Shown one piece after another: positions 1-58,440 of a stretch of DNA of 64,000 nucleotides. The notes under the pieces are model-generated. The model searched no databases and was not told where the DNA came from. It saw nothing but the letters and a program-made list of their open reading frames with translations. The first letter of the stretch is position 1. Each line of letters opens with the position of its first letter. Source of the DNA: Bryopsis sp. KO-2023 (lineage: Eukaryota > Chlorophyta > Ulvophyceae > Bryopsidales > Bryopsidaceae); the NCBI GenBank assembly GCA_030272585.1, contig BSYQ01000002.1:5518001-5582000 (forward strand), written 5' to 3'. The position numbers and the translations under genes are program-made.

Positions 1-940
1 GAACAAATACCCAGCAAATGTTATCTTTTCAGCAAGACCAAGTATTTATAATGATGTGTTTAAGAATGGTACAAAAAAGAAAGAGGGCCCAAACGCTTCG
101 AAATTGAGAGGACAATCAAGCGGTGGTAAGAACTCTTACGAGTCTCGCGGTGTCGCTACTTCGTGTGTCCAAGTTTAGTTTGCGTGCCAATATTTGTGGT
201 TTCGGAGCTTAGGGAAGGAGTCTTTTTAGCTCTCCTTATCCATAGCGTTGATACAAGTGAAAGCTTGACCAAGGAAGACTTGCAACGAATATGTTCCAGG
301 AGGGAAGGACCTTTAGCTGAAATACTGAAAAAAATTGTAAGGTTTGCCGAGCCGTTTCCTATATATTGTTAAACAAGATAGAAAGTCGATTAGTTCCTCC
401 TACTTTTTTTTTTTTTCAAAGCTCGTTGATGAAATCTGGCAGCCTTCGAACGTCCCATGCCGTTTTTCTTTCATTTCTTTCTTCCAATATTAGAATACTG
501 TAAGAAGCATCTTTTACTAGTTTTTTTATGTTTTAATTAATGCAAGACCTCAAAACCTCTGATATTCTGATGTAAATTTGTATCGGGCCTTCAAGCAAGG
601 GCACCTCCTTGCGATGATAACGTTTCCAACCTTACTTCTTTAACCATCTTTGTGGCAAACATGAAAAATGCTCGATGATTTCCCCGTTGACGCGAGTTTA
701 ACACGAAAGATCGTGGTATCAACTATATATTTTTTCTAAGGAAACACAGCTGAAACCGAATATGGACCACAACACTCCTTAAGGCGGAATGAGGGATACG
801 TTAATTGAGCATGAGGATCCTATCTAACTTATTCAGCAAGAAATGCGAGGGCAAATAAACTAAGAAAGGTTGGCATTCCAACATAAAAAGGATTGGATTA
901 CTGTACGAATCATAGTTCGAAGCGTTGTTCGAAGCCCCGT
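1..940. other. No recognisable gene or element
   Basis: Only short open frames (longest 69 codons) occur on either strand. I recognise no protein motif, RNA gene, terminal repeat or tandem array here, apart from a short T-run near 404-416. It looks like decayed intergenic or transposon-derived sequence. Confidence 0.4.
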
Positions 941-944
941 CGCC

Positions 945-1320
945 ATGTCGAAGTCGTCGTTCCAGCAAACGACCGAACAAGATCGGGAGAAGGACAGGAG
1001 AACGAAGGAGCTGTTGTACGAGAACTAAAGGCTAAAGAACCAACAGAAGACCGTCACCTAAGAGCTGGCTGACCTCTAGATAGACCGAGAATCGATGCGC
1101 AAGTGGGCCTTGCGTGAGGCAGCGCATAATGATTAAATAAGCTAAGCAACAGTCGTAAGCGAGTGTGCCGATTGCATCTTAAAGAACATGAGGGAAATTC
1201 TTTACATATGATAAGGATTTGTAATGGTAGGAAGCTACCACCCTTTCTTTTACCTGGGAATGCAAGGTGATCCAACATAGACACTCATTGATGTTGTTGG
1301 TCTAATTGACCCCTCGGATT
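945..1320 (+). pseudogene. Decayed coiled-coil reading frame
   Basis: A frame opening at ATG 945 reads MSKSSFQQTTEQDREKDRR and goes on as a highly charged, heptad-like helix (ELLYEN, RLKNQQ, ELADL, IDRESMRKWALREAAHND). It is interrupted by several TAA/TAG codons and one TGA near its end. Most TAA/TAG codons sit where Gln would suit the helix (EN*RLK, T*ELADL*IDRE), so CAA/CAG to TAA/TAG transitions are a simple explanation. No family is recognised. A gag or ORF1-like transposon protein is my best guess. The frame fades after about 1320 into two other short frames. Confidence 0.3.
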
Positions 1321-1363
1321 TTGACTTATATCGAAATCAAGGTATCAAACACATGGAATTGTT

Positions 1364-1735
1364 GTGGAGAAATTTGACGAGCTGAAAGCATTGTTGATAA
1401 TGGCGAAGTTCAAGGTGATGAACGCTCGCAAAGAGGAGAGGACATATCTACCAATTGAAGTCGCCCAAAAAAAAAAGGAAATATTTCCACATGGAAAATG
1501 CTCTAATGAAGTATTATCTACCTCTTGTGTCTCATTTCTTGAAAAGATTTAAGAACCTGAAGTTCGTTTCTCACTTCGAAAAGGTTGGAATGGGAAGCAA
1601 GGGCCTCGGATATATTTTGATATTACGAAAGACAAAAAAGGACAGTGTGTACAAAAACGCAAAGGAAGAGGTTACGTTGATTAGTCTCACTTCAATGAAT
1701 GAAAGCATTGGTATAGCACTCAATAACTTCTAATA
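1364..1735 (+). other. Two overlapping short open frames
   Basis: A 62-codon frame (1364-1552, no good ATG at its start, beginning VEKFDELKALLIMAKFKVMN in sense) overlaps a 92-codon frame (1455-1733) that is lysine rich (SPKKKRKYFHMENALMKYY). They look like pieces of one protein separated by a frameshift. The second frame is in register with the coiled-coil relic that starts at 945, so all three may come from one degraded gene or transposon ORF. No domain is recognised. Confidence 0.2.
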
Positions 1736-2419
1736 ATGTACAAAAGGAAGGTTGAATCCATATGGAGGATTTTTTTATGTTTACGAAAAACTCCTTCAAA
1801 GATGAGACGTTAGGGGGAGTACCTACTCCGCTCCTAAAAGTTAAGATCTCGCCTTTGGATGGCGATGCCTCTGAAACGTAAGAATGTTTTCGTCGACTCC
1901 GGGAGTGGATGCAATATCTTGCCGTCTGCCTATTGCAAACAAGAGGGAGCCCAGTTCAAGCGCTGTTCAGTGGTACTTCTTGGAGTGATATTCGGTTTAT
2001 CGCTTTCATCTCCACTCACGAGGTCATGGTAGTTATTATAGTGAATTATGTATCATGACATGTGCGTTGCTAAAACGTGTATAAACACCGCCATAGGGAG
2101 ACACCAATGACATTAAAAACGGGGAAGGAACCTGTCCACATAAGGTCGGCCCTACCAAACAACGACCATTGGTTCACCTCTAAAATCGGGTGGATGACTG
2201 AGATGCGGGACATGATCACGCGCTTCAACGAGTTCGGTGCTCTACACCGATACACTGACGTTAGTTTCTTGTATGTTTTATGTTTTATTCTTTTTGCACG
2301 TGGTTTGTGGTTTGTGACGGTCTAATAGACGATGTCACCCTTCTTCTTTATGACAGGTGTCCCCCAAGAAGAAGCGTTGGATATGGGGCTAGGATTTACC
2401 CCGTTGATCACCAAAAAGG

Positions 2420-2840
2420 GGACTGGACGAAAAGGGCTAACGACGCGAGCGACATTAGGACGGGCAGTGCGTCATCATTGACCTGCCTTCGGACACAGAT
2501 ACAAAGTCGGGTGGAGAGGAGGAGCTGGGAACGAAGGGACTCGTAGGCGAGGAGGATGAAACCCCCGGGAGTATTAGCGGTGGTGGAGCTGGACCAACAG
2601 TAGGTTGAGTACTTGAAACCCGCTATAGTACGTGCTTTAAGCAACCGGGTGCAAACGCCTACGTACCCCAACAATGCCGGTTCCGCGACAGTCTAGAATG
2701 CCACACGCATTGTTCTCGCGACCGCTATAACAAGACTTGAAAGGCATGCGCAAAGTTCGTTCTTACGATGCTGGTCGCCCTCAATCGCCATAACATGGTT
2801 TGTAGGGGGAGAGAGCGTACGATAACCACTTCAGAATGAT
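2420..2840 (+). pseudogene. Gag-like decayed reading frame
   Basis: One frame encodes an acidic, glycine-rich stretch (IDLPSDTDTKSGGEEELGTK, then GEEDETPGS) and ends near 2607. A second overlapping frame continues with VELDQQ, a TAG, then VEYLKPAIVRALSNRVQTPT, a second TAG and NATRIVLATAITRLER. The helix-like composition and the frame switch suggest a retrotransposon gag relic. No zinc knuckle or named domain is visible. The upstream frame 2077-2325 (82 codons) may be part of the same relic. Confidence 0.22.
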
Positions 2841-3750
2841 GTCGAGTTGATTCTTTGACAAGTTAATATTGGGGGGATGAGGATTGGGATGAACTAGGCC
2901 ACAATAATGCGTCTGTATTAGTCTATGTTTACAGTCGTGTTTTTCGCTCACAAAACCATGTTGGGTGTCAAAGAAGGGCAGATTATGTTGCGTGTAGGAT
3001 ACAAAGCGATTAACTACGTATTTCCGATAGATCAAAGAACAATTTCAAGTCTTAGCATATTTGCATGTTGTATAAGATAATAGGAAATCTTGATCGGATG
3101 ATCATTAGTCAAAGTACGTTTCCCGTTTTGCGTATATTGACATAACATTTTAAGTTTATGAGAACCCTAGCGAGAAGCGCGAGAGATGTGGCGTAAGCCA
3201 AAAAGGAAAGACCAAAAAAATAAAATTGGTTGGCGTATTGTGTAAGATTGAGTTGTTCTAGATTGCTATCATAATGAAATAATCAGAAAGGAGCACCTCA
3301 TCAACTGAAAAATATATGTTCTCTCTCCCACATTGAACACCACTAAAAGTGTGAATTATGACGAAACAAATTTTTTCTTTTCGATTTCTCTACGTGGGGG
3401 AAGATGCTTAAATTTGTCAAACACAATGGTGTTAGCTGTTAATTTGACAGTAAGAGACCGAGTGTTGATTGTGGCGGAGAGACGGGTCAACGGCGTCCCA
3501 GTTAATGAACAGCATTTTAAAGCGCGACCGAGAAGAAGGGTGAATCACGCACGTCACACAAACTGACCCTGGCATACGGCGAACGAGTTGAAAGGATGCA
3601 AAATTCCCTTGAGTTGTGGCGTCTTTGTAATTTTGTTTGCACACAACCTGGTTCGACGGGAATTGCTGACTAGCACTCCTACTCAGATAATGTAAATTAT
3701 AAGATCTCCTATCAAAATATCACTACACCTTCAAAAGAGGAACAAATTGA

Positions 3751-3815
3751 TAGGGGCCCTTCCCCCAGAGGGGGAAAGGTAGATAGGGGCCCTCCTCCAA
3801 GTGGAGGAGGGTAGA
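3751..3815. repeat. Tandem pair of GATAGGGGCCCT hairpins
   Basis: Two adjacent, related units each start with GATAGGGGCCCT and then form a G/C hairpin: CTTCCCCCAGAGGGGGAAAG in the first and CCTCCTCCAAGTGGAGGAGG in the second. The stem sequence differs but the stem is kept, as if compensatory change preserved the fold. Confidence 0.6.
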
Positions 3816-4756
3816 ACGTGGGAACACAACACAATAGCAAACCCAGCCCCAAAGGTTACACAATGTCAAAAATACAACCCTTTAAGTACTGTCCACAACA
3901 TACTAACCCCTTACTCTACAGTGACACACCCACTCACCGATGGGACATCTAGACACTAACCTCGTCACCTCGTATCACAAATAAAAGCAAGAATTAAAAG
4001 GTTGATTGCTAGTGCAAGATTGGAGCTTGCCGTTGACATGATGGCCGAGGCATCCAAGACAAAGACTGCTTAGCTTTCTTCTTTTTTTCTTTTCAAATAA
4101 AATTTCTTTTTTTTTAAATAAGAAATGTATTTATTTATTTCCCACGCATCATCCCATCATTTGGCGGAAGTCGGAGATTTTGCATGGGATGATGTCCAAG
4201 TGGTGTTCAAACGGAGACGTTCAAAGGCCAAGACAACCGCCACTCAATTTTTGCGTCAACGCACGTTAAACCAAAAACATTTGCCGTCAAAGTCCAGTCA
4301 TCATTGCTTTGGTTTTCATCATTTATCGATTTGTCACGACTGGCTTTTATATCCGGGGTGATATTTGGATCCACTCAACATAGTTTATTAATAGGTTAAG
4401 AAAAGAGTTTTGTTCGGGTTTGGGTCACAATTACGTGACGTTGCATTCACTTGTGCATCCCATTGAATTTTTTAATGGTGGAATGCGTTCAACGAACTAT
4501 CATAAATTGTGCTTAGTACCACATCGTTAAATTGAGAATTTCCCTCGACTCTTGTTGCACGACGTATTGCGAAGAAAAATCTTTGTTCGATGTTTGAAAT
4601 ATCAAGACCGTGTGCTTCGAAGTTTAACAAAAGGAAGAAAATGGAGTGTCGAAGAAGCATTCAAGCAAGAAAAGAAGCTTGAAGTCGGAGCACTATATGA
4701 TTATAACGATAGATTTCTTGGGTGCAAGTCGGAGAGAATATAAAGATTTGACTATC

Positions 4757-4815
4757 TGAGTTTCCGGCACCTACTCTCCAAGATATTTGAAAGGCAACTT
4801 GCAAAAGCTAACCTT
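4757..4815 (+). repeat. Copy of a dispersed repeat shared with 8917-8970
   Basis: The stretch CACCTACTCTCCAAGATATT, followed by TGAAAGGCAACTTGCAAAAG, matches the second copy near 8921-8970 (TGACAAGCGAGTTGCAAAAG) with few changes. In the second copy the frame reads LLSKIFDKRVAK, resembling the fingers region of non-LTR reverse transcriptases (SKIFEK). Both therefore appear to be fragments of one decayed LINE family. Confidence 0.45.
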
Positions 4816-4819
4816 AAAT

Positions 4820-5570
4820 CTTGCTTGGGCATGTAGAAGTTGTATTGATGGAGCAAAAGTTGAGATCCCATGTCATTTGTCATTTACTTCTCCGTCCGAA
4901 AAATCTCGTACTTGATGATTTTCGATAGTTTCACTCGAGGTCCAGCATGCGGGCGGAAAAAGAGTGCTGGTTGAGGCGAGGATGCTGGAAATTCTGAGAC
5001 AGACGGGGCTCTCATCTCTGAAATCCTTAAAGACGTGAGACTCTAACTTTCATTTTTTTTTGTCGATTGATTTCTAGTTGTTTTTAGAAGAATCTTGTGA
5101 GATAGTCAGACTTGTAGTGATCCTGTTGCGCGCCAAGCTTGGCTTGGTAAACTGATTTTTTGCGAAGTTGAGAAAGAAGAACCTCGAGGAGAACAACCGA
5201 AATGAGGTTGATTGGGTAAATGAAACTCCTAGGTGGTGCCAACATCAGGGCGGATATGATTAAGTACTTTCTGGTGGCGATTGAGATTATATTAGAGATA
5301 GATGACGACCCTAGGATCCTAGGCTGCAGGAACCCCTGTACCGAGGATGCAGCCTCAACATTTTGTAGGTAAGGCTCGTTTGCTACCGAAATAATTGCAT
5401 CAGAGGCTGGTTTCTGGACTCATGCGACTGAAGTTTTATCGCGTGCGACGGTGGTGGTTTTAGTTTGGTTTAGTCACTTTTCAAGTTTGGGTGTTCATTG
5501 AAGAAAGGTTTTTTGCGCCCTGTTGTGACATGTGTTGGACGGGTTTGGCGTTGTGTGCGACGTAGGTCTT
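4820..5570. other. No recognisable gene
   Basis: No open frame above about 50 codons with coding character, no tandem repeat and no terminal inverted repeat seen. Confidence 0.4.
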
Positions 5571-5571
5571 A

Positions 5572-5793
5572 ATGGTTGTATGGTCCTTGAAAGAGTCGTC
5601 GGGGATGACCAGGTCGACATTTGAAGCCCTGCTTCGATTGTTCTCTCAAGTGATTCCTCAACCCAACGACTTTACTCGTACCTTTGCAATCTTCAAGAGA
5701 CGAATTAGTGTTCCGAACTTGAAAAACTTCGGGTACGCTACGTGTGAGGATGGGTGCACCGCTGTGAAAGAGACCAGGTGCGTTGTTGATTGA
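5572..5793 (+). pseudogene. Possible CACTA (TNPD-type) transposase N-terminal fragment
   Basis: This 73-codon open frame reads STFEALLRLFSQVIPQPNDF, then a spacer with NFGYATCEDGCTAVKE. The order LL-L-----P----- followed by Y--C--GC----E resembles the N-terminal segment of plant-type CACTA/En-Spm TNPD transposases, where an LLKLLKEALP-like helix precedes Y-K-ICPNGCVLY. The catalytic core is absent. The match is from memory of the family and the segment is short, so the call is tentative. Two CACTA-type elements exist further right at 40.0-43.7 and 47.9-50.6 kb. Confidence 0.28.
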
Positions 5794-5799
5794 TGTTGG

Positions 5800-7840
5800 T
5801 TCAACAGTAAAAAGTGTGTGTGTGATAAAACGTTACAACAACAAAAAGTTCGCATAAAAACCTCCTTGTTTCTCGTGATGGTTGTGATCTTGTGCAACTC
5901 TTAAACCATGTGCTGCAACACATCAGTCCATGTCTGTGACGTAAAAGTGGAATTGAAAGATATTCGTTCGTTTGCAACTCCGTAAAGCGTTCTTGCGCCG
6001 GCGTGTGGTTGTTGTGCGACATATATGTGGATATGTGCCTCTTGGCATTCAAGATCTCTTTTTCTTCGATAAGTGTTATAAGCGTCTATGCGTCGGAAAA
6101 AAAACATTGTGCGACGTGTTTGTTGATGTGTGCTACCATTCTAGTAGATCGGGCAAGTCATCCAGCTTCCGATGTTGCAACTCCATTACGCTCATTATAG
6201 CGACTAAGTCAATTACCTACTAAGATTTCCGGTAAACATATATCATAATCACGCAATCTTGAGAAAGTGACTCCTCACACATTTTGGCCTTGAACCTCAA
6301 CACACACGCTATCCGGAGCAGGCTACATAAGTTGTACGAGTTCTTTCTATAAGGGGATCTAACTGCAGTATTAGTATTAGAACCAAAACACGGAACGTTT
6401 TCGAAGTGGAAGTTTCACGAGACACTATGATTTGATGTGGAATTGCATAATGGGAAAGCAAGAGCTTTTGCGAGGGAAATGGGCAGAAATGCGATTGATG
6501 TTGAGCCAGTTGATGTATACCCTCTACTCCGAGTTTATTTTTTAGGGAAAGAACTTTTTTTGCTTGTGATAGTTGTGGGTACGAAGGCTATTGATACGAG
6601 TAACATTGCTCATCGCGGATGACTTTTCGCATATGCCCATAAACAACTTTTTTTTAATGAATGTCAATCTTTGGAGAACAACATCAAGGTGGGCAAATTT
6701 TCAATATCAAAATATGGATTCGATAATGATAAGACAAGACAAGACGAGTGGGCAGATGGTTTGCGTCATATTTAGCTGCTTTATTGGTATGTGTAGGGAG
6801 TAGATTATCTTTTGGACTCCGATCATCTGAATGAAGTTCCCTAGATTCAAGTCGAAGAAAAGGACGGAGTCGCGAGAATCATCGTGCGATGTCCCCTAAT
6901 CGATGTCCCCTTATTATATATATTATATATGCCCCCTTTACATATATATATATATAAAGGAGAGGAGGGCGACTAATTTTTTTTGGAAAAGGAGGAAAGG
7001 TTGTTCATGGACAGAAGGAATGCATGGCAAAAGGGAAGGAAGATAGAAAGGGAATAAAAGTGGGACAACACAAATAATTCAGGAGGTGTTTCATGAGTGT
7101 TTTATAGTGGAGTTTCTTGTTTTTTCTTGCGTGTAGGTCGTTTTAGTATGCAAGTGCCCCTCTCTATTTTTATTTGTCTTATTTTTAGTCTATTTCGAAA
7201 AGAACCATGAAATACCGAAGTATGGGATAGTCGGGTGAGATCTAATAGGGTCTTTTCTTGAACAATAAAGGGAAACCACAAGTGGGGTTCTATATCAGTA
7301 TTGCACAAAACCTCGGGTTTAAGCTAGTTGTATTTGCGTCACGCCAGTTTGGGACGTTATAAGGTAACCTCTTTTTTCCCTTTTCACCATAAAACTGCCC
7401 TAGTACTCCGAATCATGCAACTATCTTGTATTCTTTGCTTGCGCTCTCGAGGACGTGGTATGATTTAAAGTGGTGTTGGTTCTAAGATGTATACATGTAT
7501 ATATGAAAAGGAAGCTAAAGGGCGAGGAGAGGGGGGATTCCATCAAGTAAAATAGGCCATGCAATGCATCATCTTCTTTTCGAGACATCCAACCTCCACT
7601 ATTGGCTTTGTAGGACTTTGCACTTCGGAGTGTAATTCACGCACACGCACACTACGTCTTTTTTTAATTAATTCTTCATCTTTCCGCAAACATTAGTGAA
7701 TTCCGCATTTTGCCTTTTGTTTAAAGTTAGATTGGGCAGCAAGTGAATTCACAGATGAGACCATTTCTTGAAGGCATAGGCATCCACCATTTTTGGTCCA
7801 ACGTTGAACCCGGGATTCACATTTTGATAGGATTGAAGAT
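5800..7840. other. No confident gene; short AT hairpin at 6935-6960
   Basis: Several 60-83 codon frames overlap on both strands around 5.8-6.2 kb, none with a recognisable motif. A CTTTA-(AT)n-TAAAG hairpin lies at 6935-6960, and a TATA-rich inverted repeat sits just before it. Otherwise nothing is recognised. Confidence 0.35.
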
Positions 7841-7879
7841 GGGTCAAAAAAGAAAGGTATAAGTCTTTTTTCCCAATTT

Positions 7880-8380
7880 AAGACAAAAGATTTTTTTGAA
7901 TGTTTTTAAAAATGTTAATTGAAACGGTGCGGTTTTTTGTTCTACACTAGAGTTATTCCATCCCTTCGTATTTCGAGGTTTTTTTGAGCCAATTGTCGAA
8001 AGATACTTGATCTTATTTGTTCGATGCGAATATTTCTTCAAGAACGATAGGTCTGAGAATAGTCTGGAGAAATTAAGATGATACTTCTTCACATCCTTTA
8101 TCGCTCGAACCCATTCAATATTACAACTCATTTTACTAATGCGCCGTGTTGCAAAGAAAAGTTTCACTCTTGCCTATATGAAGATTTCTAGAGATGTAAA
8201 GTTTGGTGCAGAAAGAGTTGCAAGAAAGATTTGAGGGCATTGCTTTTTCAACAAAAAGCTTGTGAAGACAATGAGGCTCTCACTTCCACCCCCAGCAGAT
8301 AAAGCAGCTGTTTCTTTACGCAGTTTTCGGATACCCAAAGCTGGTTGACAGGTCATCAAAACCTTTTCCGTTGATGCTCG
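7880..8380 (-). pseudogene. Ty3/gypsy RNase H-like relic
   Basis: On the minus strand the frame 8359-8174 contains QPALGIRKLRKE and then LIVFTSFLLKKQ, recalling the P-L-LPD and PIAF-SR-L motifs of Ty3/gypsy RNase H. The frame 8167-7844 contains FFATRRISK, NIEWVRAIKDVKKYHLNFSR, comparable with SRRLS--E-NY-E-LA-V-AVKKWRHYL-GR. The catalytic Asp residues (TDAS, TDH) are not present. I read this as a strongly mutated gypsy pol fragment in two frames. A chance resemblance cannot be excluded. Confidence 0.3.
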
Positions 8381-8859
8381 CTTCCGCTTTATTGCTTTAA
8401 AGAATCTCGCTTACATCCTTGTGTGAGGCATATATACTTCAAATAGTCTATATCATTGCCAACTCAAATGTCCCGTCTCAACACAATTAGGACAAGCGAT
8501 AGATGGTGTCGATTGTCGCATTTATTAAAGTAGAACATTGTTTGGATTTGTGGCGTTTATGTTTTTCACATTTGATTGAAACAATGAGGACTCGTCATCG
8601 GAAGGAATGAGTTCCTTTGGTGGCCACTTCCTAAAAGAACACACGAGAATTCGAGCGCTTAGTTCAGCGGAATAGTTTATCTAAAACGCACAAGATTGCA
8701 ATTCAAACAAAAGTTTCATCTTTCGTAGTTAGGCTATCGAGCCTTCGAATATTGGCCATTCACCACGCTCATCGTTCGAATATGAACAACGGTTAGGACG
8801 GATCGAACGTGGAAACCAACCGGAATAGATCATACCTGGACATCAATAGGATAGGGCGG

Positions 8860-38931: not shown

Positions 38932-39970
38932 ATGAGCGACTTTGTACCGGTCGAATGGGACTTACCAAAGGATATCCTACATTTTTCGAAGAATTCCAGC
39001 TCTACTCTTGGCTAGATGCTCATGTGTCGCCACATCTTGGCGAGACATCACAAATGAGAATTCGTCCTTAAAAAGAAAAATCGGCTTGGAGCGTGCGTGG
39101 TTGCATGAACAAATACAACCCATTATTCACAAGGATCGAAATTTTACCGTGTTATATTGTGTCATGATGGAAGGTTTGATTGCCCTGGGTGGTTTCAATA
39201 GGTTCAAGGTGTTCGATCTTAGTCGAAGAGAATTTGTTTTTGAATGTGAGGAGACAGTTTTCAGTTTCTCTTTTATGGACGGGATGCTTATGACCGGGGA
39301 TCACGATGGTGACTTGTGTGGATGGGATACATCCACATGGAAAAAGATTTTTTGTGTCTCCATTTTGGATTCTGGTATCTTATCGATTGCAGATCTTGGT
39401 AACAACGTGGCCGTGGGGGGGGAGGATGGGGATATTCAAATTTGGAAAAAAGGGGTACTCGAGTTCAATAGATCCCTTCAAGGGCACGAAGGTAGTGTTT
39501 CTTGGATCTTTCCCCAACCAAACAATTTCTTGATCAGTGGGTCGGGGGATGGAACCATTCGAATATGGAATTTGGTCGATGGTGCTTGTCTTCGAGTGAT
39601 TCGTGGGCAGAAATGGGGAGAATTCTCCATGAGTGTTTCAGATGGACTCATTTTTTTTGGAGGAATTGATGGCAACATTCGCTCGTGGGAATTTGAAAGT
39701 GGTCAGCACGTGCAAACCTTTCGAGGTCATAAAGGGTGGTTGACCTCCATTATTGCTAAAGGGGGTCGGATGTTCACGGGATCTTGTGATAATACGATAA
39801 AAATATGGGATACCACGAAGGGGGATTGTGTGAGAAGTTTTAGTTGTTCACAAAATTTGGACCAAGCTGTTTTGGAAAGGGTGTATGTGTTATGGGTTGA
39901 TAATGAAAAGTTGGTGGCCGTTCGTGGTGATGGGGAGATTTGGGAGTGGAATTTTTCTCAGGGGTTATGA
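38932..39970 (+). pseudogene. F-box/WD40-repeat paralogue with a frameshift in the F-box
   Basis: ATG 38932 opens MSDFVPVEWDLPKDILHF, matching the paralogue on the minus strand. In this frame a TAG follows at about 39013. The homologous continuation (RRIPALLLARCSCVATSW, RDITNENSSLKRKIGLERAW) lies in the +1 frame. One extra T in the CATTTTTCG run near 38980 explains the shift. Downstream, the WD40 blades are intact: GDIQIWKKG, LQGHEGSVSWIF, GSGDGTIRIWNLVDG, GNIRSWEFESG, FRGHKGW and TGSCDNTIKIWDTTKGDC, ending TGA at 39968-39970. Apart from the shift it could be an SCF receptor; the shift means a pseudogene or a sequencing or assembly slip. A CACTA transposon begins 70 bp after the stop. Confidence 0.72.
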
Positions 39971-40055
39971 ACACCCTCTTGTTTGACACAATTTTGTGAG
40001 ATCACGTGTTCATTGCTTAGGATGTGTAATTTCAAGGAGGCACTAGTGAAAAAAC

Positions 40056-40345
40056 GCCGCTTTTACAAGCTTGTAAACACCTTGTAAAGTGCTTGTAAAG
40101 TCGATTACAAGCTTGTAAAGACTTGACACTGTCCCCATCGTTTACAAGCTTGTAAAGTGGAGATTACAAGCTGTTACAAGCTGTTACAAGCAAAAAGCTT
40201 GTAAAGTGGAACACCTCCATGCTTGTAAAGTGGGAATTTACAAGGTGTTACAAGCTGTTACAAGCTGTTACAAGCTTTCCCGATCCACGCGGTTACAAGC
40301 TCTTACAAGCTGTTACAAGCACTTTACAAGCTTTGTCATTGATGT
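40056..40345. repeat. Left subterminal repeats of the CACTA element
   Basis: More than a dozen copies of ACAAGCTTGTAAA, TTACAAGCT-GTTACAAGC and CTTGTAAAGTG occur in both orientations over 290 bp. In En/Spm the comparable array binds the TNPA protein; that role is inferred here. Confidence 0.8.
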
Positions 40346-40574
40346 GTCATCACACAAGCCCAAGCACACGCTCGTGGTGCGATTGATTGTAAATTTTAAT
40401 TGATGGTTGTCTATAGATGATTCCATTCTCAACCACATGGGTGATTATCATTATTATAAATTACAATCATTGCAATATTTTAATGATTATGAAGTAATGG
40501 ACAGGACATCATCATGATTTCAATTTTTCTAATTACAATGATAAATTACAACAAAGACGCAAATCCCTTTCAAC

Positions 40575-40640
40575 AGCTTGATGTGCCCAAGAATCGAACT
40601 TGGGATCCACCTTCTGCACATTCTTGCTTTCTGGAAGTTT
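40575..40640 (-). repeat. tRNA-like B-box sequence
   Basis: On the minus strand, CCCAAGTTCGATTCTTGGG forms a perfect T-arm-like hairpin with a B box. An A-box-like GCTGGTTGTGAGG lies upstream, but no acceptor stem pairs, so it is a decayed tRNA or SINE head inside the CACTA element. Confidence 0.35.
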
Positions 40641-41424
40641 ATCCTCACAACCAGCAAAAGAAAGCAAAAACACCCCTAAACCACCTCAATTGAGTTTTTT
40701 CCACCCATCACACAAGACACCAATTCTGGTTCTAGGCACAAATTAGCAGAAGCTAGGCTTTTCCCTGTCCTGTTCATGTCATGCATATCAAGACACCACA
40801 GGTTCAGGGTTATCACCCCCATCTCGGCTCTTCAAACAGGATCGCAGCTCATTTCCCTTCAGCCCCCAAGTCAGGCTGCAGGAGGAATTTGCTGCCCTGT
40901 CCATCAACCAGCTAATCGACTCTTCCTAGACTGAATGTATCGGAATATACCAATCAGCAAATGAGTGGCCAAACACGCCAAACATCAGCCCTTCATCACA
41001 ACTATCAAAGAAACAAGTATATCCTTTGCTTCAATATCTCCTCTCTTTGCACCCAGAACCAGAAGCAAAGCTATCAGAAGTGAGCGAGAACGAGGAGAAG
41101 CCCCTCTTGTGCACGTGGAAGGTTTGATCCCTGGTCCTCATTATGTCATTCAAAACGCTCATGTTGCAGGGCAACGACCTCTTTCAGGGACTCCTTAAAA
41201 AGTCTCCTGGTTTGCGAATCCAAGCCAGAACTTCAAGCCAGATTGCCCATCCCAGACACCTACGAAGCACTTTTATTCTTGCTTTCTTTACTTATTCAAA
41301 AACAATATACATAATGATTTTACTCATTTTAAATTTATTTAACTATTTTTAAAGCGGGATTTACTTGGTTCGCCAGCGTCGGTCTCGTCCTTTGCGTCTG
41401 TCATCGGAGTATGACCGTCCCCTG

Positions 41425-43373
41425 CATCAGGACCTGGATCTGGAACGTGATCTTCGATATCTGGACGGAGATCTAACCCTCGATCTCCTTCGGTAGCTTG
41501 TTTCCCACCACCCCGAAAAAAAAAAAGTAAAAAAAAGTAAAGAAAACCCCAATAAAACACAGAACAGAAAGAAAAAAGAGAAAACATCCACTGCAATTGT
41601 TGTGGGATGATGACCTGGAAAAAAGCCCGCTAACACTCACTCAGATCAGAAGTTAACGTATATTTCAGCACAGATTTCAGCACGTACATTCTCCGTTTAC
41701 ATCAGAGGATTCTTTTTTTGGCTTCGTTCATTTCACTTTATCTAATGTTCATTCTATTTTATTCTTGACCAGACTGCTTTCATTGCAATGGCACTACCTG
41801 CTCCTGGACACAGATCTCGAACGAGAATAGGACCGAGATTGCAGATGCTCCTTGAACTACTGTGGGCGATGCATCCCCGGTCGCAATTGATCGATGGAGG
41901 GTTTTCAAGTGTGGCCCAGGTTCTGCTGAGCTCTTCAACAATAAGGGAGCAGATGTCGGGTCGAACGCAAAGCATCGAGTGATGGAGGTGCAGAACGTTG
42001 AGAGTCTGATAGGAGGGCCAATCAACAACTGGTGAACTCTCAGGGGCCCTGTACAGGCAAAGGAAGGAATAAAAGGTGATGATTCGAACAGGGGACCAGC
42101 ACAAAGGCTCAAGTTCTGTTGAACCCAATAAAAACGTGTTTACAGACAGGGACCCCACCTGCAATATCCAGAGCTGATGCCAGCTGCCTGGCAGCTGCCA
42201 CTCCCTCCTGGCTGCTTTTCTCATTTGCCTTGCGTAGATTTCTACTCCTCTGCTTTGTGATGAGTTCAATGATTTTCGCCAGTGGATGATTCTCTTGCCC
42301 ATTCCCCTTGCTTGAGGAGCTCATCTGCCTGCTCAAAGGATATAGGAACTTGCAGCATGGAGAGCTGACCTGGAACAACAAAACCAAAACCCACGCCACC
42401 ACTTGCGGAATTTCAGAGCCACCTACATCCTGCTGTCAACTAAACCTTCCAACAGGGAAATAAAAATTGTGCTTGAAAGGGAAGAAAACCCCCCAAAATA
42501 GACCCAAGGGTGATGCGTGTGGGAGGAGGCTTTAAGCACCCCAAATTTTCGTTATTGATTATTTTGGCGATGCGTTTTCAACTTCTTTTTTCTGCACACC
42601 TTTTCCCATTCATCATCTACAAGCGTAAGTACGATACGAAGCAATGTGTCATTGGATGCCTCCAGTGCCACTGAGCAGGTAGACAACAAAGTCACCACTC
42701 CTGCAATCAAGCACACCAAACAAAAAGACGATGACTTCCCGGTTTAAACAGGGATCTATGTTAGGAAAAAGAAAAAAAAGCAGAAAGAACAGAGCTCATC
42801 TGTTTTTGTAGTGGGCTAGAATTACCTTCCCCCAATTTTCTTCTGACAGAAACTGCATATATATATATAGAAAATCGACCACCTCCACTGTCGCCACCTG
42901 TTCAATTTCTTTTTTCCCCTCCAAGAAAAAAAAAAGCAGCAACAAAACACGCAGTTCGCTGGCTGTAGCGAAACACTCACCTCACGGGGGATCTTGATCT
43001 TGACCTTGAACTGGATAATGAATATCGCCGCCGTGACCTTACCCAACAGAAAGATACCACCCTTGGTGCCCTCCATCGCGTATCCACTGGCGGAATGGGC
43101 GGTTGAGGTCATTTGCTTGCGCTTGATGGACTCTTGGTAGGGGACGGCGACCGCCTGGGCCTCCTCAACGGCCCAAAGAGAAGTAAAACCGACCACGTGG
43201 TCGGTAGATGCAGTGCACTGCATCAACCGGAGACCAATTCTTGCAAGAAAGAATGGGATGAGCAATCTAGAAACGAACGCCCCTGCTGGGGTATTCCCAC
43301 TCTCTGTACCTCGTTCCCTGCGCGCCGGTGCACTCGTCTCCGACTTTTCTTTCAGCCAAAGGAAGCTCTTCAA
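41425..43373 (-). pseudogene. Captured multi-exon arginine/serine-rich (RS) gene segment
   Basis: Three minus-strand segments encode RS-rich protein next to splice signals. Segment A (43040-42981) reads RSRRRYSLSSSRSRSRSPV and ends at GTGAG/GTGAGT. Segment B (about 41850-41799) reads QSRSYSRSRSVSRS and ends AGGAGCAG/GTAGTG. Segment C (41497-41432) reads YRRRSRVRSPSRYRRS and RSRSRS, then TGA. B and C join in phase across a GT...AG intron (41798-41498), giving one continuous RS domain. Another open exon (42369-42180, MSSSSKGNGQENHPLAKIIE, then ITKQRSRNLRKANEKS) has an acceptor (TTGTTGTTCCAG) and a donor. RS domains mark pre-mRNA splicing factors. No RRM is seen, so the family is unresolved. Lying entirely inside a CACTA element, it is most likely a captured host-gene fragment. 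Exon connections other than B-C are not established. Confidence 0.5.
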
Positions 43374-43547
43374 ATACCTGCTTTGCTGGGAATACGCGAC
43401 CGGTCCTCCGGAATCTCACACTCGACCTCGTGCAGTCGCGGATGGGAGCAGGCCGTTGAACGATGGCTGGTCACATAGGATGGGAGGCAAGGAAATTCGA
43501 AAGATGGAGATTCGCAGGTGTACGACCTTCTAGAATGGGATTACAGG

Positions 43548-43700
43548 GTTGTAAACTGAGAATACAAGCTTGTAAACTGAGATTACAAGGTGGAACCACA
43601 GAGAGCTCTCCGCGACGCAAAATTTTGGCCAAGTGCTGATGTTACAAGCTTGTAAAGTGGATTACAAGCTTGTAAAGTCACTTTTACAAGCTTGTAAAAT
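43548..43700. repeat. Right subterminal repeats of the CACTA element
   Basis: About seven ACAAGCTTGTAAA-type motifs in a 150-bp block next to the right terminal repeat, matching the left array in sequence. Confidence 0.8.
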
Positions 43701-43729
43701 CGGCGTTTTTTCACTAGTGAGGTGTGGTT

Positions 43730-50634: not shown

Positions 50635-52550
50635 GGGGGGACAAAGGAACAAAAAGAAGCACTACCTTAACAGAAAAGAAACGAAATTTACAAAACTTAG
50701 GAAAAGGCAAAGAGGGAAACAACAGTACAACACCGACCCTTAGAGCGAGGGGACTTTTTTTCTTTCTTATGTTATGTTTTGCAATGGCACAGTAGGGTTT
50801 GAAATGAGAGAGGGGAAAATGGGGAAAACAATTTGGAGTGAGGGGGTGTTATGGTGTTATGCATGTACTTAGTAATGGAGAAAAGGGCAAAGGGGCAATA
50901 TTGTCACTTTGTTCATCGCTTTTCTTCATCACGGCCCGTTCATGTTTTGGTGTGTATATACTTTTTGATCCTTTCAAAAGGAAGCGTGTGCGTAACTTTT
51001 TTATTTCTTTTATGGATGGAGTAATCCATTTTTCTTTTTTCTGGGGTACATTGGGATAGAGAAGGGAAAAAGAAAAAAAAAAAGGAAAAAAAAACCCACA
51101 AGAACAAGAAACGTATTTGGAATATCGTGGCATTCCACTGAAATTCCATCTGTGTGTGCGTGGTGTTTTAATCTGCCAGGGGTGATCTTTTTTACTTTTT
51201 ACATGGCATGAAAGACAAAGTCTGTTGTTTAATGCAAGGAGGGGGGTGGGGCGGGAGTTACATATGTAAAGAATGAAGTATTTTGTTGGTTTTGATGATT
51301 TTGATCACCACCCCAGAATCTGGGTTTTTGGAAGGGTGTATTTTCTGACAGTACAGGACGACTACCTGCCGTTTTGTTTCATGGGATTGGGGACTGTTTC
51401 CAGGAAAAGTACAATTTCTTGTATCTGGGGGAGGAAGATTAGTGAATGGTGATCGGTGTATTTTTTTGGGATCCAAGCCCAGGTCGGCAGTCGTATTGCG
51501 TTTCAGATTGGTGCAGACGTTTGTTCTTTTAAAATGGTTTTTTGGAGCTGTATGTTTACTCTGGTTCAGCAAGGGACCATGTTTTTCTAGCAGGAAAATT
51601 ATCTGCTAAGTTTTGATTCCAAAAATAATATCATGGAATGACCTGACCCAAGGGAAGATATTCTCGAGGATGGGAGTGTTCTCTTTGAAACAAGAATAGA
51701 TGAGGTCTGAAATAGACAAGGAAGCCTTAGATTATAAAAACAAGCTAAATTACTTTATCCTTGTCAGAAAAAAGGGTGTATTTTACTCAAATAAAATAGA
51801 AAAGTTCTTCCCATATCAGTGGGTTCTTTTTTTTTTGTTTTTGAATCTCTTTATGTGGCGAACAGACTTTTCTTCAGTGAGTTCATTTCTAACAGAACTC
51901 TCCAAAATGTTCTTGCATTTTTGAGGTTTGGTCAGTATATTTTTGGGAATATTCTGGTGTTCTGATTCTCATGATGGTGAGGGTCAGCATGGTGGTTTGC
52001 CTTGACACTTCGATACATAGGGAAGTTAGAGGTGTGGTTTTGTGGTTGTGTGTGTGTGCTGGGGAGGGAAGTAAATATGTGTCATCAGAAATCTGTTGGC
52101 TGGGTTGTGTTGGGTCCAATTTTTAGTTTGTGTTTTCTGGAATCATGGTGGGGTGAGCTTAAGAGGCCTTTTCGAGAGTGGATTTCAGGTTTTGGTGGAT
52201 GATAGGCAATTTTAGATCAAAAGTACTGTAGTGTTTCTGTCACTTTGAGAGTTCAGCTGATTTTGTACTTCAAAGTTTGAGGAAGGGAAAAAAGAGTGAG
52301 AGACTAATGGGTCAGTCTGAGGAAAGAAAAAAAATGTGAGAACACAAGGGGGGGACTGTATTGCTCCAATATAAAGACCTGTGAGTAAGAAATATGGAGG
52401 ATTCACCCCATAGAGAAAAACAAAATGTATCAAAAACTGTGTGGAATGTTTTTGTGGGAAGTTGGAGAGTTATAAACAAGAAAAAGCAAATTTCTGGAAA
52501 GTGGGAGGAAAAACTATTGGTTGGCAGAATAGAGTGAAAAACAAAAACAT
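50635..52550. other. AT-rich sequence without recognisable gene
   Basis: I looked here for the missing half of the SMP domain or C2 domains and found neither. Frames are below 113 codons and low in complexity. Confidence 0.4.
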
Positions 52551-55207
52551 CACCACCCTGAAACACCTCAACCTCAGCACCTCTAGACACCCTGAAAAAA
52601 AACACCAAGCCCAAAATCATCACCACCCTGAAACACCTCAACCTCAGCACCTCTAGACACCCAGAAAAAAAACACCAAGCCCAAAATCATCACCACCCTG
52701 AAACACCTCAACCTCAGCACCTCTAGACACCCTGAAAAAAAACACCAAGCCCAAAATCATCACCACCCTGAAACACCTCAACCTCAGCACCTCTAGACAC
52801 CCAGAAAAAAAACACCAAGCCCAAAATCATCACCACCCTGAAACACCTCAACCTCAGCACCTCTAGACACCCAGAAAAAAAACACCAAGCCCAAAATCAT
52901 CACCACCCTGAAACACCTCAACCTCAGCACCTCTAGACACCCAGAAAAAAAACACCAAGCCCAAAATCATCACCACCCTGAAACACCTCAACCTCAGCAC
53001 CTCTAGACACCCTGAAAAAAAACACCAAGCCCAAAATCATCACCACCCTGAAACACCTCAACCTCAGCACCTCTAGACACCCAGAAAAAAAACACCAAGC
53101 CCAAAATCATCACCACCCTGAAACACCTCAACCTCAGCACCTCTAGACACCCAGAAAAAAAACACCAAGCCCAAAATCATCACCACCCTGAAACACCTCA
53201 ACCTCAGCACCTCTAGACACCCAGAAAAAAAACACCAAGCCCAAAATCATCACCACCCTGAAACACCTCAACCTCAGCACCTCTAGACACCCAGAAAAAA
53301 AACACCAAGCCCAAAATCATCACCACCCTGAAACACCTCAACCTCAGCACCTCTAGACACCCAGAAAAAAAACACCAAGCCCAAAATCATCACCACCCTG
53401 AAACACCTCAACCTCAGCACCTCTAGACACCCTGAAAAAAAACACCAAGCCCAAAATCATCACCACCCTGAAACACCTCAACCTCAGCACCTCTAGACAC
53501 CCAGAAAAAAAACACCAAGCCCAAAATCATCACCACCCTGAAACACCTCAACCTCAGCACCTCTAGACACCCAGAAAAAAAACACCAAGCCCAAAATCAT
53601 CACCACCCTGAAACACCTCAACCTCAGCACCTCTAGACACCCAGAAAAAAAACACCAAGCCCAAAATCATCACCACCCTGAAACACCTCAACCTCAGCAC
53701 CTCTAGACACCCAGAAAAAAAACACCAAGCCCAAAATCATCACCACCCTGAAACACCTCAACCTCAGCACCTCTAGACACCCTGAAAAAAAACACCAAGC
53801 CCAAAATCATCACCACCCTGAAACACCTCAACCTCAGCACCTCTAGACACCCTGAAAAAAAACACCAAGCCCAAAATCATCACCACCCTGAAACACCTCA
53901 ACCTCAGCACCTCTAGACACCCTGAAAAAAAACACCAAGCCCAAAATCATCACCACCCTGAAACACCTCAACCTCAGCACCTCTAGACACCCAGAAAAAA
54001 AACACCAAGCCCAAAATCATCACCACCCTGAAACACCTCAACCTCAGCACCTCTAGACACCCAGAAAAAAAACACCAAGCCCAAAATCATCACCACCCTG
54101 AAACACCTCAACCTCAGCACCTCTAGACACCCTGAAAAAAAACACCAAGCCCAAAATCATCACCACCCTGAAACACCTCAACCTCAGCACCTCTAGACAC
54201 CCTGAAAAAAAACACCAAGCCCAAAATCATCACCACCCTGAAACACCTCAACCTCAGCACCTCTAGACACCCTGAAAAAAAACACCAAGCCCAAAATCAT
54301 CACCACCCTGAAACACCTCAACCTCAGCACCTCTAGACACCCAGAAAAAAAACACCAAGCCCAAATCATCACCACCCTGAAACACCTCAACCTCAGCACC
54401 TCTAGACACCCAGAAAAAAAACACCAAGCCCAAATCATCACCACCCTGAAACACCTCAACCTCAGCACCTCTAGACACCCAGAAAAAAAACACCAAGCCC
54501 AAAATCATCACCACCCTGAAACACCTCAACCTCAGCACCTCTAGACACCCTGAAAAAAAACACCAAGCCCAAAATCATCACCACCCTGAAACACCTCAAC
54601 CTCAGCACCTCTAGACACCCAGAAAAAAAACACCAAGCCCAAAATCATCACCACCCTGAAACACCTCAACCTCAGCACCTCTAGACACCCAGAAAAAAAA
54701 CACCAAGCCCAAAATCATCACCACCCTGAAACACCTCAACCTCAGCACCTCTAGACACCCTGAAAAAAAACACCAAGCCCAAAATCATCACCACCCTGAA
54801 ACACCTCAACCTCAGCACCTCTAGACACCCTGAAAAAAAACACCAAGCCCAAAATCATCACCACCCTGAAACACCTCAACCTCAGCACCTCTAGACACCC
54901 TGAAAAAAAACACCAAGCCCAAAATCATCACCACCCTGAAACACCTCAACCTCAGCACCTCTAGACACCCAGAAAAAAAACACCAAGCCCAAATCATCAC
55001 CACCCTGAAACACCTCAACCTCAGCACCTCTAGACACCCAGAAAAAAAACACCAAGCCCAAAATCATCACCACCCTGAAACACCTCAACCTCAGCACCTC
55101 TAGACACCCTGAAAAAAAACACCAAGCCCAAAATCATCACCACCCTGAAACACCTCAACCTCAGCACCTCTAGACACCCTGAAAAAAAACACCAAGCCCA
55201 AAATTAT
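52551..55207. repeat. 70-bp minisatellite, about 38 copies
   Basis: The unit begins CACCACCCTGAAACACCTCA and contains ACCTCAGCACCTCTAGACAC and AACACCAAGCCCAAAATCAT. Copies are almost identical. One position alternates between CCCTGAAAA and CCCAGAAAA types, and three copies (starting near 54301, 54370 and 54929) are 69 bp, missing one A (CCCAAATCAT). The minus-strand frames of 68-112 codons here simply translate the repeat (LRLRCFRVVMI) and are not genes. Confidence 0.97.
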
Positions 55208-55284
55208 TACCACCAGCCCAACCAGCCCCCAACCGGCCCAACCGGCCCAACCAGCCTAACCAGCCCAAACAGCCCAAACAGCCC
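55208..55284. repeat. CCCAACCAGC-type short tandem repeat
   Basis: Units such as CAGCCCAACC, CGGCCCAACC and CAGCCCAAAC follow the minisatellite directly and grade into the next duplication. Confidence 0.8.
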
Positions 55285-55620
55285 AAACTTGTGAACGCAA
55301 CAAAGCCGTATTTGTTTCACGAACGAAAGGTTTCTTGTATTTTGCGATAGAAAGGAATTCAGTCACGGACATTTGTCTCCGAACGTCGATCGCAACAGAA
55401 TAAAAACACCAGTTCCAACGGGAAAACAAAACCAAAACCAAAACCAAAACCAAAACTTGTGAACGCAACTAAGCAGTATTTGTTTTCCGAACGAAACGTT
55501 TCTTGTATTTTTGTGGTAGAAAGGAATTCAGTCGCGGACATTTGTCTCCGAACGTCGATCCCAACATAATAAAACAGTTCCAACGGGAAACCAAAACGAA
55601 ACGAGACGAAACAAAACGAA
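55285..55620. repeat. Tandem duplication of ~168 bp
   Basis: Two copies, 55285-55452 and 55453-55620, share CTTGTGAACGCAAC, TTTCTTGTATTTT, GAAAGGAATTCAGTC, GGACATTTGTCTCCGAACGT and GTTCCAACGGGAAA. Each ends in an AAACCAAAAC/GAAACGAAAC tract. They differ by point changes and small indels. Confidence 0.85.
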
Positions 55621-55621
55621 A

Positions 55622-58440
55622 CTTAGCACTTGTCAACTTGTGTGGAACTTGTGGAAGTAAAATCGCTTGCGTGAATATATATGACGCGCGGTGCGACTGG
55701 CGGAGAATTGACAGAAACTCTTGATTGGGAGGTTTCTGTCCGATTGATGGGACCCATCAACCCTGCCGTTTCTTTCCTTGCCGACGCGTGAGCTCACGTG
55801 ATGAGAAGCTCACTCTTTTCTCCTTCTGTGAGTGAGTGGCTGCTTGAATCGGTTCTGATTAGTCACTCTCTTTTTCCTCTTCAGGGACTGTTGGCTTTTG
55901 ATGGGGTGGCTTTGTTCTTGTCTCGATTTATATTTTAATTTTGTCTCAAGGTTTTCATTATGAAACGTTGTAAAAAATTTTACTCTATTTTTATTTTTTT
56001 TTCATTTATACTTTTATACTTTATACTCAACATCACAGGCTATCCTAGATTGTTCAATTAGTTTTGATACATTTTTGAATTTTATCCTTGTGCCCAGCAG
56101 GAGGTCGTCTACACAACTTCCTTTTTCTCAAGTTTTTTTTGGGCTGGTGGAAGGTGTATGGTGGTCCATTCATTTAACATTCTTGTGTTTTCTGGAGTCT
56201 GCAAATTTGACTTCTTTTTCTTTTTCTTTCTTTTCCGCGGCTTCTTTTGTTCTTTTGTCAATTTTTTTTTACGAGGGGGGAATCAGGATTGTGGTTGTCT
56301 GAACCTACATGGGTAAGAAAGAAAATAAAAGGGTTATACATGTGAGGGAATTAAAGAAAGAAAAATATCCCTGCTCATGTGTGTGTGTGTTTTAATTAAA
56401 ACCAAAATGACTGCATTAGGGCACAAAACACTCCAGTGACTCTGGTATATTTGGGATTCTTTTTACTTTGAAAGGTTTCTTTTTAGTCATCTCTGTATTG
56501 TTTAAGAGACCATCCAGAACATGTAAAAGCGGAAGTCACTTGCAAGCACAAATAATCAAAAAAACTGGATATCGAGAAAAAAAAAAACGCATGCCCACAA
56601 GAAATCCCTGTACCTTTTTTTTAGTTTCTTTTTTCGAACTCATTTTCAAACTCCTTTTTTTCTTCACCTTAATTTAAATCATAGCATTCAGAATGGCGAA
56701 AAACCGATCCGATGTGACGACCTGTCCACAGCCCAACGCAGAATTTTGAGCAATTTAAGGTTTAAAAATTTTCTAAAAAATTTGTAATGTAGAACCAGCT
56801 GTTGAGAATTTGTGGGTCAATGACCCACCAAAAAAAAGAGTCAAAGGCAATGCTTTTCTGCGTTTTTTTTCTCCCTATTTTCCTCCCATTCAACGAAGGC
56901 CTTCCTTTGAGAAGGCTAACCCGCTCGCTGGTACTCCTTTTCTTTCTTCCCCCTTTTTTCTTTTTTGTTTTTTTAGCGGATAGGAGAGTGACATCCACCC
57001 TGACCTACCAAGCCCTCCGCTTATTTTTGTATTCGTTTCCAGAAGTGGGCTCCTGTTGCTGCCTTTACCATCGAAGAGTCCAGCTGATTTTGCCCTTTCA
57101 TTTGTTTGCAGTCCACCCCCTCCCCTAGAAAAATTGTTAATAACCAGAAAACCATATTCAGGTCTCCGCCACCTGAGTATGCAATTATTCAAAACGAAAT
57201 TCACATCCGCCAGCATTGATTCCACCTTAGGTTGAAGATTTGTGGGTGTGAATTCAATGATTTAAACAAAAATGGCATAAAACTGAGTCGTTCCATTCAA
57301 AAATCGAGTTTCCTCAACAAGAAGACTGATATCTTGGGAGTTAGAATTTATGGTGGGACGACTGGTCAGGTCAATCCAGGCCACACCAATTTTTTTGTTC
57401 ATTTATAATAGGGATTATGTGTTTTTTCTGTTCGGGACTGAAGTATTGCTCTATGTTTTGTTTTTGTAACGCAGTCGTCGTTCTTGTTTCGAAGGGAAAC
57501 AAAGTGCTTTTGTTTTCAGTGACTCTGTGTTTTCTTGGATGCTTCTGGTTCTGTTTTCAAGGATGTTTTTTGTTCCGTTTGGAAAGATTGGAATCTGTTT
57601 GGAAAGAAAGCCAAGCAGCCAGGAGCCCCTTGGTGATTAGTTTGCAATTCACTCAGTTGCACCAACCCACTTTTCAAAAACAACGAAAAGACCCCAACCC
57701 AAAGAGAACCCAAACCTCAGGATCAGTCAGACTGTGGGTTCAGCTCCAACCAGAAACCACCCAATCACCACCCATCTACTTTTCCAACCAGCTTGGAAAA
57801 GATGGCTTTGGCTGCACCCAACAGTCTGACTGACTGACATCCCTTTCGAGGGGCATTCCACACCCCCATTGGGATTGGGCACCCTGACCAGCCAGAGCCT
57901 AACCGGCCACAGGTTGCAACAAGCCACCAATCAAGGCCGACCACCAACATGCAAGAAAATCCCCCAACCACAGGCACATCCCCCAACCAAACAAAATCGG
58001 CCGACATGGATGAAAATCCAAAAGAAAGACAGAATGGAGAATCCCCCCCTCCCCAATTGAAAACCATTGGATTCGTTCCACGAAAAGAAATGAGATTCTT
58101 CCCGGAATCACCAGCTCAGGCGCGCTGCGCCGAAACCATGGCACCCGCTGGTGCGTTTGGTTGCATACCCAAACCGTGAGAACTCGATCGGGCTTCTCCA
58201 GAACAGGAAATCGTTTTCCTGTCCCCCACACAACAGCTCCCCACACTCTCACTCACCTGACTCTTTGGTGGCTTTGGTCGGCATAACGCGTGAGCATCGC
58301 GAGGACAGCGATTCGGACGGCTGGTTTGGACTGGGGACGTTTTCGAAGACGTCGGAGAGCCGCTCGACGCGCGCACCGCTCGAGTTTCTGGCGGTTGGGT
58401 GACTCATCCTTGGGGAGGGTACTTGAGTGCGACATAGCCG
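55622..58440. other. No confident gene
   Basis: The minus frame 57225-56890 (SMLADVNFVLNNCILRWRRP, EYGFLVINNF) is the most protein-like segment but has no domain and no splice support. The plus frame 57417-57833 and the others overlap Cys/Phe-rich or CCAACC-rich sequence. Several overlapping frames on both strands at 57.7-58.4 kb are mutual shadows. Confidence 0.35.

Follow-up and report, generated by a model that had tools for sequence, protein, structure and literature searches.

Positions 40041-43719 of the window, a 64,000-nucleotide stretch of contig BSYQ01000002.1 from the green alga Bryopsis sp. KO-2023, are occupied by a complete CACTA-type DNA transposon with CACTAGTG at both ends. 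We consider it very probable that this is a non-autonomous Pack-CACTA element that captured DNA serially, introns included, before it spread, and that its cargo is now most likely decaying passenger DNA. When aligned to the rest of the genome, the interior reads as a mosaic in which fragments of three unrelated host genes are accompanied by part of a tandem repeat and by an older dispersed repeat (X), which goes beyond the one RS-rich gene of the initial annotation.

CACTA (EnSpm/CMC) elements have terminal inverted repeats beginning CACTA/G, a 3-bp target-site duplication of no fixed sequence and subterminal repeat arrays, and they are mobilised by a tnp2-type transposase. The ends, the 3-bp duplication and the subterminal arrays are all present in the element and its family. 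The terminal inverted repeats, at 40041-40077 (plus strand, starting CACTAGTGAAAAAACGCCG) and 43683-43719 (minus strand), are 37 nt long and 97% complementary, with one mismatch, and by flank comparison the adjoining triplets at 40038-40040 and 43720-43722 both read AGG, just as had been proposed initially. Palindromic subterminal arrays, also part of that proposal, are equally evident. Of the motif TTACAAGC/GCTTGTAA there are 19 examples in the element's first 300 bases and 7 in its final 200, with none in the interior, and the remainder of the window has a single one against the 26 in the element ends. The left array (40062-40330) is made of TTTACAAGC/GCTTGTAAA units and palindromes, and the right motifs lie in a backbone (43255-43682) common to a 2.7-kb subfamily; no strand was assigned to the duplications, the left array or this backbone. 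PIF/Harbinger elements make a 3-bp duplication of the TWA type, and Mutator-like elements (Pack-MULE) one of ~9 bp. Triplets such as AGG, CCC, TCT and CGA do not fit the former, nor does the 3-bp length of the duplications fit the latter. The insertion probably falls in the 3' region of a host ORF encoding WD40 repeats (38942-39970, plus strand), with 70 bases separating the element from the stop codon of that ORF. Elsewhere in the window, the composition profile of 52001-56000 shows strong GC skews of -0.41 and -0.46 and AT skews of 0.43 and 0.35.

The genome (91,088,769 bases in 28 contigs) contains further terminal repeats of this kind, for which the initial annotation had suggested a search: the end pattern CACTAGTGAAAANRYGCCG is matched exactly 40 times, against 0 for a reversed control. 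With up to 3 mismatches, CACTAGTGAAAAAACGCCGC has 75 matches against 10 in the control, many of the 75 being other CACTAG families. From the matches listed, at least 19 complete elements were extracted, the window's copy included. Not counted among these are a ~100-bp piece at C2:1894537, one-ended matches at C7:3105293 and C14:771263, and right ends without a listed partner at C2:778619, C2:7587836 and C8:5421610. The ~100-bp piece, at positions 4538-4639 of locus L027 (C2:1890000-1899000), is a miniature with little beyond the two ends, and two stretches of L067 (C5) match the 2.7-kb type at 76% and 90%.

Seven complete copies are of a 3.7-kb type (the window's copy, L009-L013 and the longer L024), L014-L023 are of the 2.7-kb type, L025 is 8 kb long and L026 is a 232-bp miniature. 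Target duplications of 3 bp, varied in sequence, flank 16 of the 19; L018, L019 and L024 are without one. Element positions 1-630 and 3215-3679 are common to both long types (~84-94% in pieces), and the interiors differ. The window's copy and L009 show 6 differences in 3679 aligned bases. Within the 2.7-kb type, comparison of L021 with each of the nine other copies gives 17-46 differences in 2622-2729 positions; such low divergence points to recent movement. Pairwise, the window's copy and L009-L013 differ at 6-71 positions over about 3.5-3.7 kb, and L024 differs from them at 214-234, a figure that is probably too high because of a badly aligned tail. In the window's copy and L009-L013 the right end is almost the same as the left (AAACGCCGA), whereas L024, L026 and the 2.7-kb type have TATGCCGT, a split that suggests end conversion. 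Given its different right end and the lack of a target duplication, L024 may be a recombinant.

No transposase-bearing copy with family ends (CACTAGTGAAAA...GCCG) was found in the genome. A genome-wide search for Transposase_21 (PF02992, tnp2 type) hit a single place, C12:548569-549374, outside the 19 copies, with two matches around it, one of them containing internal stops for which introns may account. Near this place there are no family ends within 3 mismatches among the matches listed, and a scan of the surrounding 5306 bases revealed no matching CAC...GTG ends (14 or more matching positions in 20, together with a 3-bp duplication); the reversed control also gave none. Two candidates for an autonomous member were rejected. 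C10:701137 is a weak relative (31%) in which Pfam gave no transposase match, and the 8-kb copy L025 (C12:633762-643761) owes its length to a nested retrotransposon. The latter, Ty3/Gypsy-like (family named by eye) and with two long ORFs, lies at ~3788-8687 inside a 2.7-kb-type element. From structure alone, we infer that a transposase supplied from elsewhere would cut and move the element ends.

The minus-strand RS-rich exons of the initial annotation are real and match an RS-rich gene on C11, but its list of the cargo was incomplete: ~1 kb of TTI1 and ~200 bp of a PSII repair factor 2-like (PRF2) gene had been missed. Element coordinates below are window coordinates minus 40040, and the exon numbers of RS and TTI1 are our own. 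The left part of the interior holds a piece of X (40663-40754; 84% over 99 aligned columns, like L061 at C11:3840000-3844000), a tandem-repeat piece within it (40755-40925; the repeat, like L046, occurs on C10, C8 and C6) and the remainder of X (40926-41064), which in L012, L013 and L024 is ~210 bp longer. These three pieces, with no strand assigned, fill element positions 623-1024. They are followed by the 3' part of the RS fragment (41067-41842; element 1802-1214 and 1181-1027), which has internal deletions and comprises RS exons 2 and 3 together with introns, and by the TTI1 fragment (41844-42857; element 2817-1804), which corresponds to C1:3493740-3494741 and contains exons 2-4, the end of the preceding exon and three introns. 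Next come the 5' part of the RS fragment (42867-43052; element 3012-2827), which includes RS exon 1 and the beginning of the intron that follows it, and the PRF2-like fragment (43053-43254; element 3214-3013) from C4:435667-435845. All gene pieces are in minus orientation, an agreement expected by chance in 1 of 4 cases.

The TTI1 fragment is 92% identical to its parent on C1, which was named from a Pfam match (PF21547, E 3.4e-20) on the adjoining part of the gene. PRF2 was named from its sole PDB match (8kde, E 7.7e-8); the gene has no Pfam or NCBIfam match, and the N-terminus of its protein resembles a plain plastid transit peptide, which would point to a primary green alga. The joined RS exons have no Pfam match, and the gene was left named RS-rich. 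A search for a fuller RS gene, as the initial annotation had recommended, led to the separate C11 locus, and additional RS exons flank the captured stretch there on either side, which makes this locus the parent rather than another copy. The view of the element as a CACTA transposon with captured host exons is thus upheld, and the position of the parents at separate loci on C11, C1 and C4, with host gene fragments between the ends, is that of a Pack-CACTA element. A single-copy host RS gene whose introns harbour unrelated repeats, the case that the initial annotation had named as refuting its view, found nothing in its favour and is practically inconceivable in the face of seven copies, terminal repeats at many places and the separate parent on C11. 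Since introns are present in the captured pieces, capture proceeded via DNA.

In the 2.7-kb sister subfamily, two short stretches (126 columns at 83% and 42 at 86%) match a C1 gene whose exons match the MCM P-loop (E 4.1e-28) and have MCM6 as best PDB match (E 2.3e-37). Besides these MCM6 pieces, the subfamily has others that match X and further loci without assigned identity. X itself (L061) occurs at ~six places, and both element subfamilies contain pieces of it. Its ORFs are exon-like and Cys-rich, and inspection by eye shows units of ~54 bp arrayed in tandem. The extra cargo of L024 (L024:4660-5180) has weak matches elsewhere (67-79%).

The joins between pieces, taken from present-day copies, preserve a record of how the mosaic was assembled. 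RS and TTI1 exons are present in all seven 3.7-kb-type copies, and the left RS|TTI1 join and the RS|PRF2 join, which is blunt, are identical in all seven, which implies that capture preceded the spread of these copies. The old TTI1|RS join survives in L024 only; the other six copies have a later deletion there, bridged by a TA run. In L024, RS pieces 4613-3990 and 3991-3734 (numbered from C11:1486200 = 1) flank TTI1 (L036 1501-2527). TTI1 therefore sits inside the RS fragment with zero RS bases lost, the RS pieces overlapping by two bases; at one TTI1/RS join two bases (GC) are assignable to either parent, and the other join has one extra A. In the same copy the tandem-repeat piece lies between X pieces 2244-2147 and 2148-1799, which overlap by two bases (CT), either repeated or shared. 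The position of TTI1 within RS, without loss, speaks for serial templated insertion more than for a fusion of elements that lay side by side.

We propose that, before multiplying, the element took up DNA of the older repeat, the RS-rich gene, TTI1 and the PRF2-like gene, most likely piece after piece. At least the TTI1 and tandem-repeat pieces would have landed inside earlier captured pieces, from which no base was lost; going by the joins, the best account of this is that a break within the element was repaired with unlinked genomic DNA as template. The mosaic would then have reached at least seven sites and have been shedding DNA since. Substitutions between L024 and the parents number 36 of 347 for X (.104), 73 of 976 in three pieces for RS (.075), 56 of 1024 for TTI1 (.055) and 16 of 345 for PRF2 (.046). 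This order fits serial, nested capture, although exon constraint confounds the comparison and the gap between RS and TTI1 is not large. As a more general proposition, CACTA elements might accumulate host genes from unlinked places through templated insertions at internal breaks, serial and lossless, with a new piece ending up within an earlier one; to this idea we give even odds.

In the fusion model, attributed to Catoni 2019, a pair of closely spaced CACTA copies moves as a unit and encloses the intervening DNA. The model has been described for Pack-CACTA and Pack-TYPE elements, and it could account for the first capture beside the ends. However, pieces from the unlinked C1, C4 and C11 abut one another, and the lossless position of TTI1 inside the RS piece of L024 is not predicted by it. 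Moreover, there is no subterminal motif between cargo pieces in any of the 8 elements scanned, so that no such remnant of element ends persists there. For the nested pieces fusion seems disfavoured by these joins, and as an account of the mosaic we regard it as improbable. A similarly low probability is given to the possibility that TTI1 inserted into the C11 RS gene itself, in an allele or an old duplicate, and that the chimeric stretch was then captured in one event. An insertion at the host locus would likewise lose no RS base, but the C11 gene of the assembly has no such insertion, which makes an unseen allele necessary, and the tandem repeat in X shows the same lossless insertion.

The cargo is most likely decaying passenger DNA. 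The alternative, a functional chimeric gene that encodes an RS or TTI1 fusion protein and is maintained by selection, has some features on its side. TTI1 exons 2-4 are open and the three TTI1 introns have kept GT and AG in all seven copies. Indels in clear exons, truncations at piece edges left aside, are all multiples of three: 3 (L010-L012), 3 (L013), 3 (PRF2; the window's copy and L009), 6 (RS exon 1; the window's copy, L009 and L024) and 45 (RS exon 3). This weakly suggests frame-keeping. These indels sit in repeats of codon size. Two others, an insertion of 22 nt at the putative start of the PRF2 exon stretch (all three copies that retain it) and the loss of 14 nt from a further possible RS exon, are not multiples of three and run counter to frame-keeping. 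Against a working gene, RS exon 3 has the 45-bp deletion and an in-frame CGT->TGA change (window 41427-41429) in 7/7 copies, and four of the seven retain only 29 bp of PRF2. The window's copy differs from the TTI1 parent with pS 0.100 and pN 0.053, and within the family 12 amino-acid-changing and 5-6 silent changes were counted by hand in the TTI1 exons, for ~385:125 sites. Variation among the copies looks neutral, although the numbers are small. A gene under selection is accordingly a very remote prospect.

The splice sites described as working-looking by the initial annotation hold for one RS intron in the window's copy, that between RS exons 2 and 3, which is intact at both ends; the other RS introns are not. 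New RS proteins, which had been envisaged as a product, are unlikely: exon 3 lacks 45 bp and carries the TGA in all seven copies, the captured pieces align to inner parts of their parent genes, and TTI1 exon variation appears neutral. We conclude from the alignments that the cargo is probably decaying, with no selection visible; chimeric transcripts may nevertheless be possible.

Other CACTAG-ended families exist in this genome, with end types such as CACTAGTAAAAAAACGCCTA and CACTAGTGAAAATACCCCCC. The CACTAGTAAAAAAACGCCTA type occurs at 17 places (e.g. C1:8365618, C2:493732 and C3:5018657), and the matches listed within 3 mismatches show no evident opposite end to pair with it. At L064 (C10:2169900-2175500), positions 76-5530 form a CACTAG-ended element of 5455 bp with 29-bp ends that are 97% complementary and AAAA on both flanks. 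By eye, no transposase was recognised in it and its ORFs are Cys-rich and exon-like; it is possibly a second, independent Pack-CACTA family.

The Pack-CACTA kind of element is already known from soybean and other plants. In titles and abstract openings of a partial literature collection there was no algal case, and a diatom paper (PMC7017206) has the term in its reference list only. The present element places gene shuffling by a CACTA transposon in a small green-algal genome, and bears on how DNA transposons acquire unlinked gene pieces; with seven related copies, three identified parents and one copy that retains an older join, the order of events is readable from sequence. Tgm-Express1 of soybean is a CACTA element with five host gene fragments (PMC1947982). 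In both elements CACTA-type ends enclose fragments, exonic and intronic, of several unrelated host genes, with usable splice sites. Chimeric transcripts of Tgm-Express1, driven by the host gene, were demonstrated, whereas the present element is known from DNA, in a different host, as seven copies of one mosaic, one of them with the older join.

Pack-CACTA and Pack-TYPE elements of Arabidopsis, rice and maize, as described in PMC8903248 and PMC13317346, resemble it in being non-autonomous, in having host coding DNA between their ends and in forming multicopy families with differing cargo. There, fusion of neighbouring insertions is the favoured model, in contrast to the nested, lossless insertion of unlinked pieces seen here. 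The latter, a 2026 review (PMC13317346), grants that an alternative, undiscovered mechanism for unlinked fragments may exist, and serial lossless insertion, if true, would be that route, in a green alga and thus in neither a land plant nor an animal. A third comparison is with the animal Pack-TIRs, for which gap filling and FoSTeST were proposed (PMC8277862). Their fillers are likewise joined with short or no microhomology, and multicopy forms spread by transposition. Break repair from other templates, as proposed there, predicts the joins observed here, whereas neighbour fusion does not; the animal cases are distributed across TIR transposons, whereas here capture would be both serial and nested within a single algal CACTA element.
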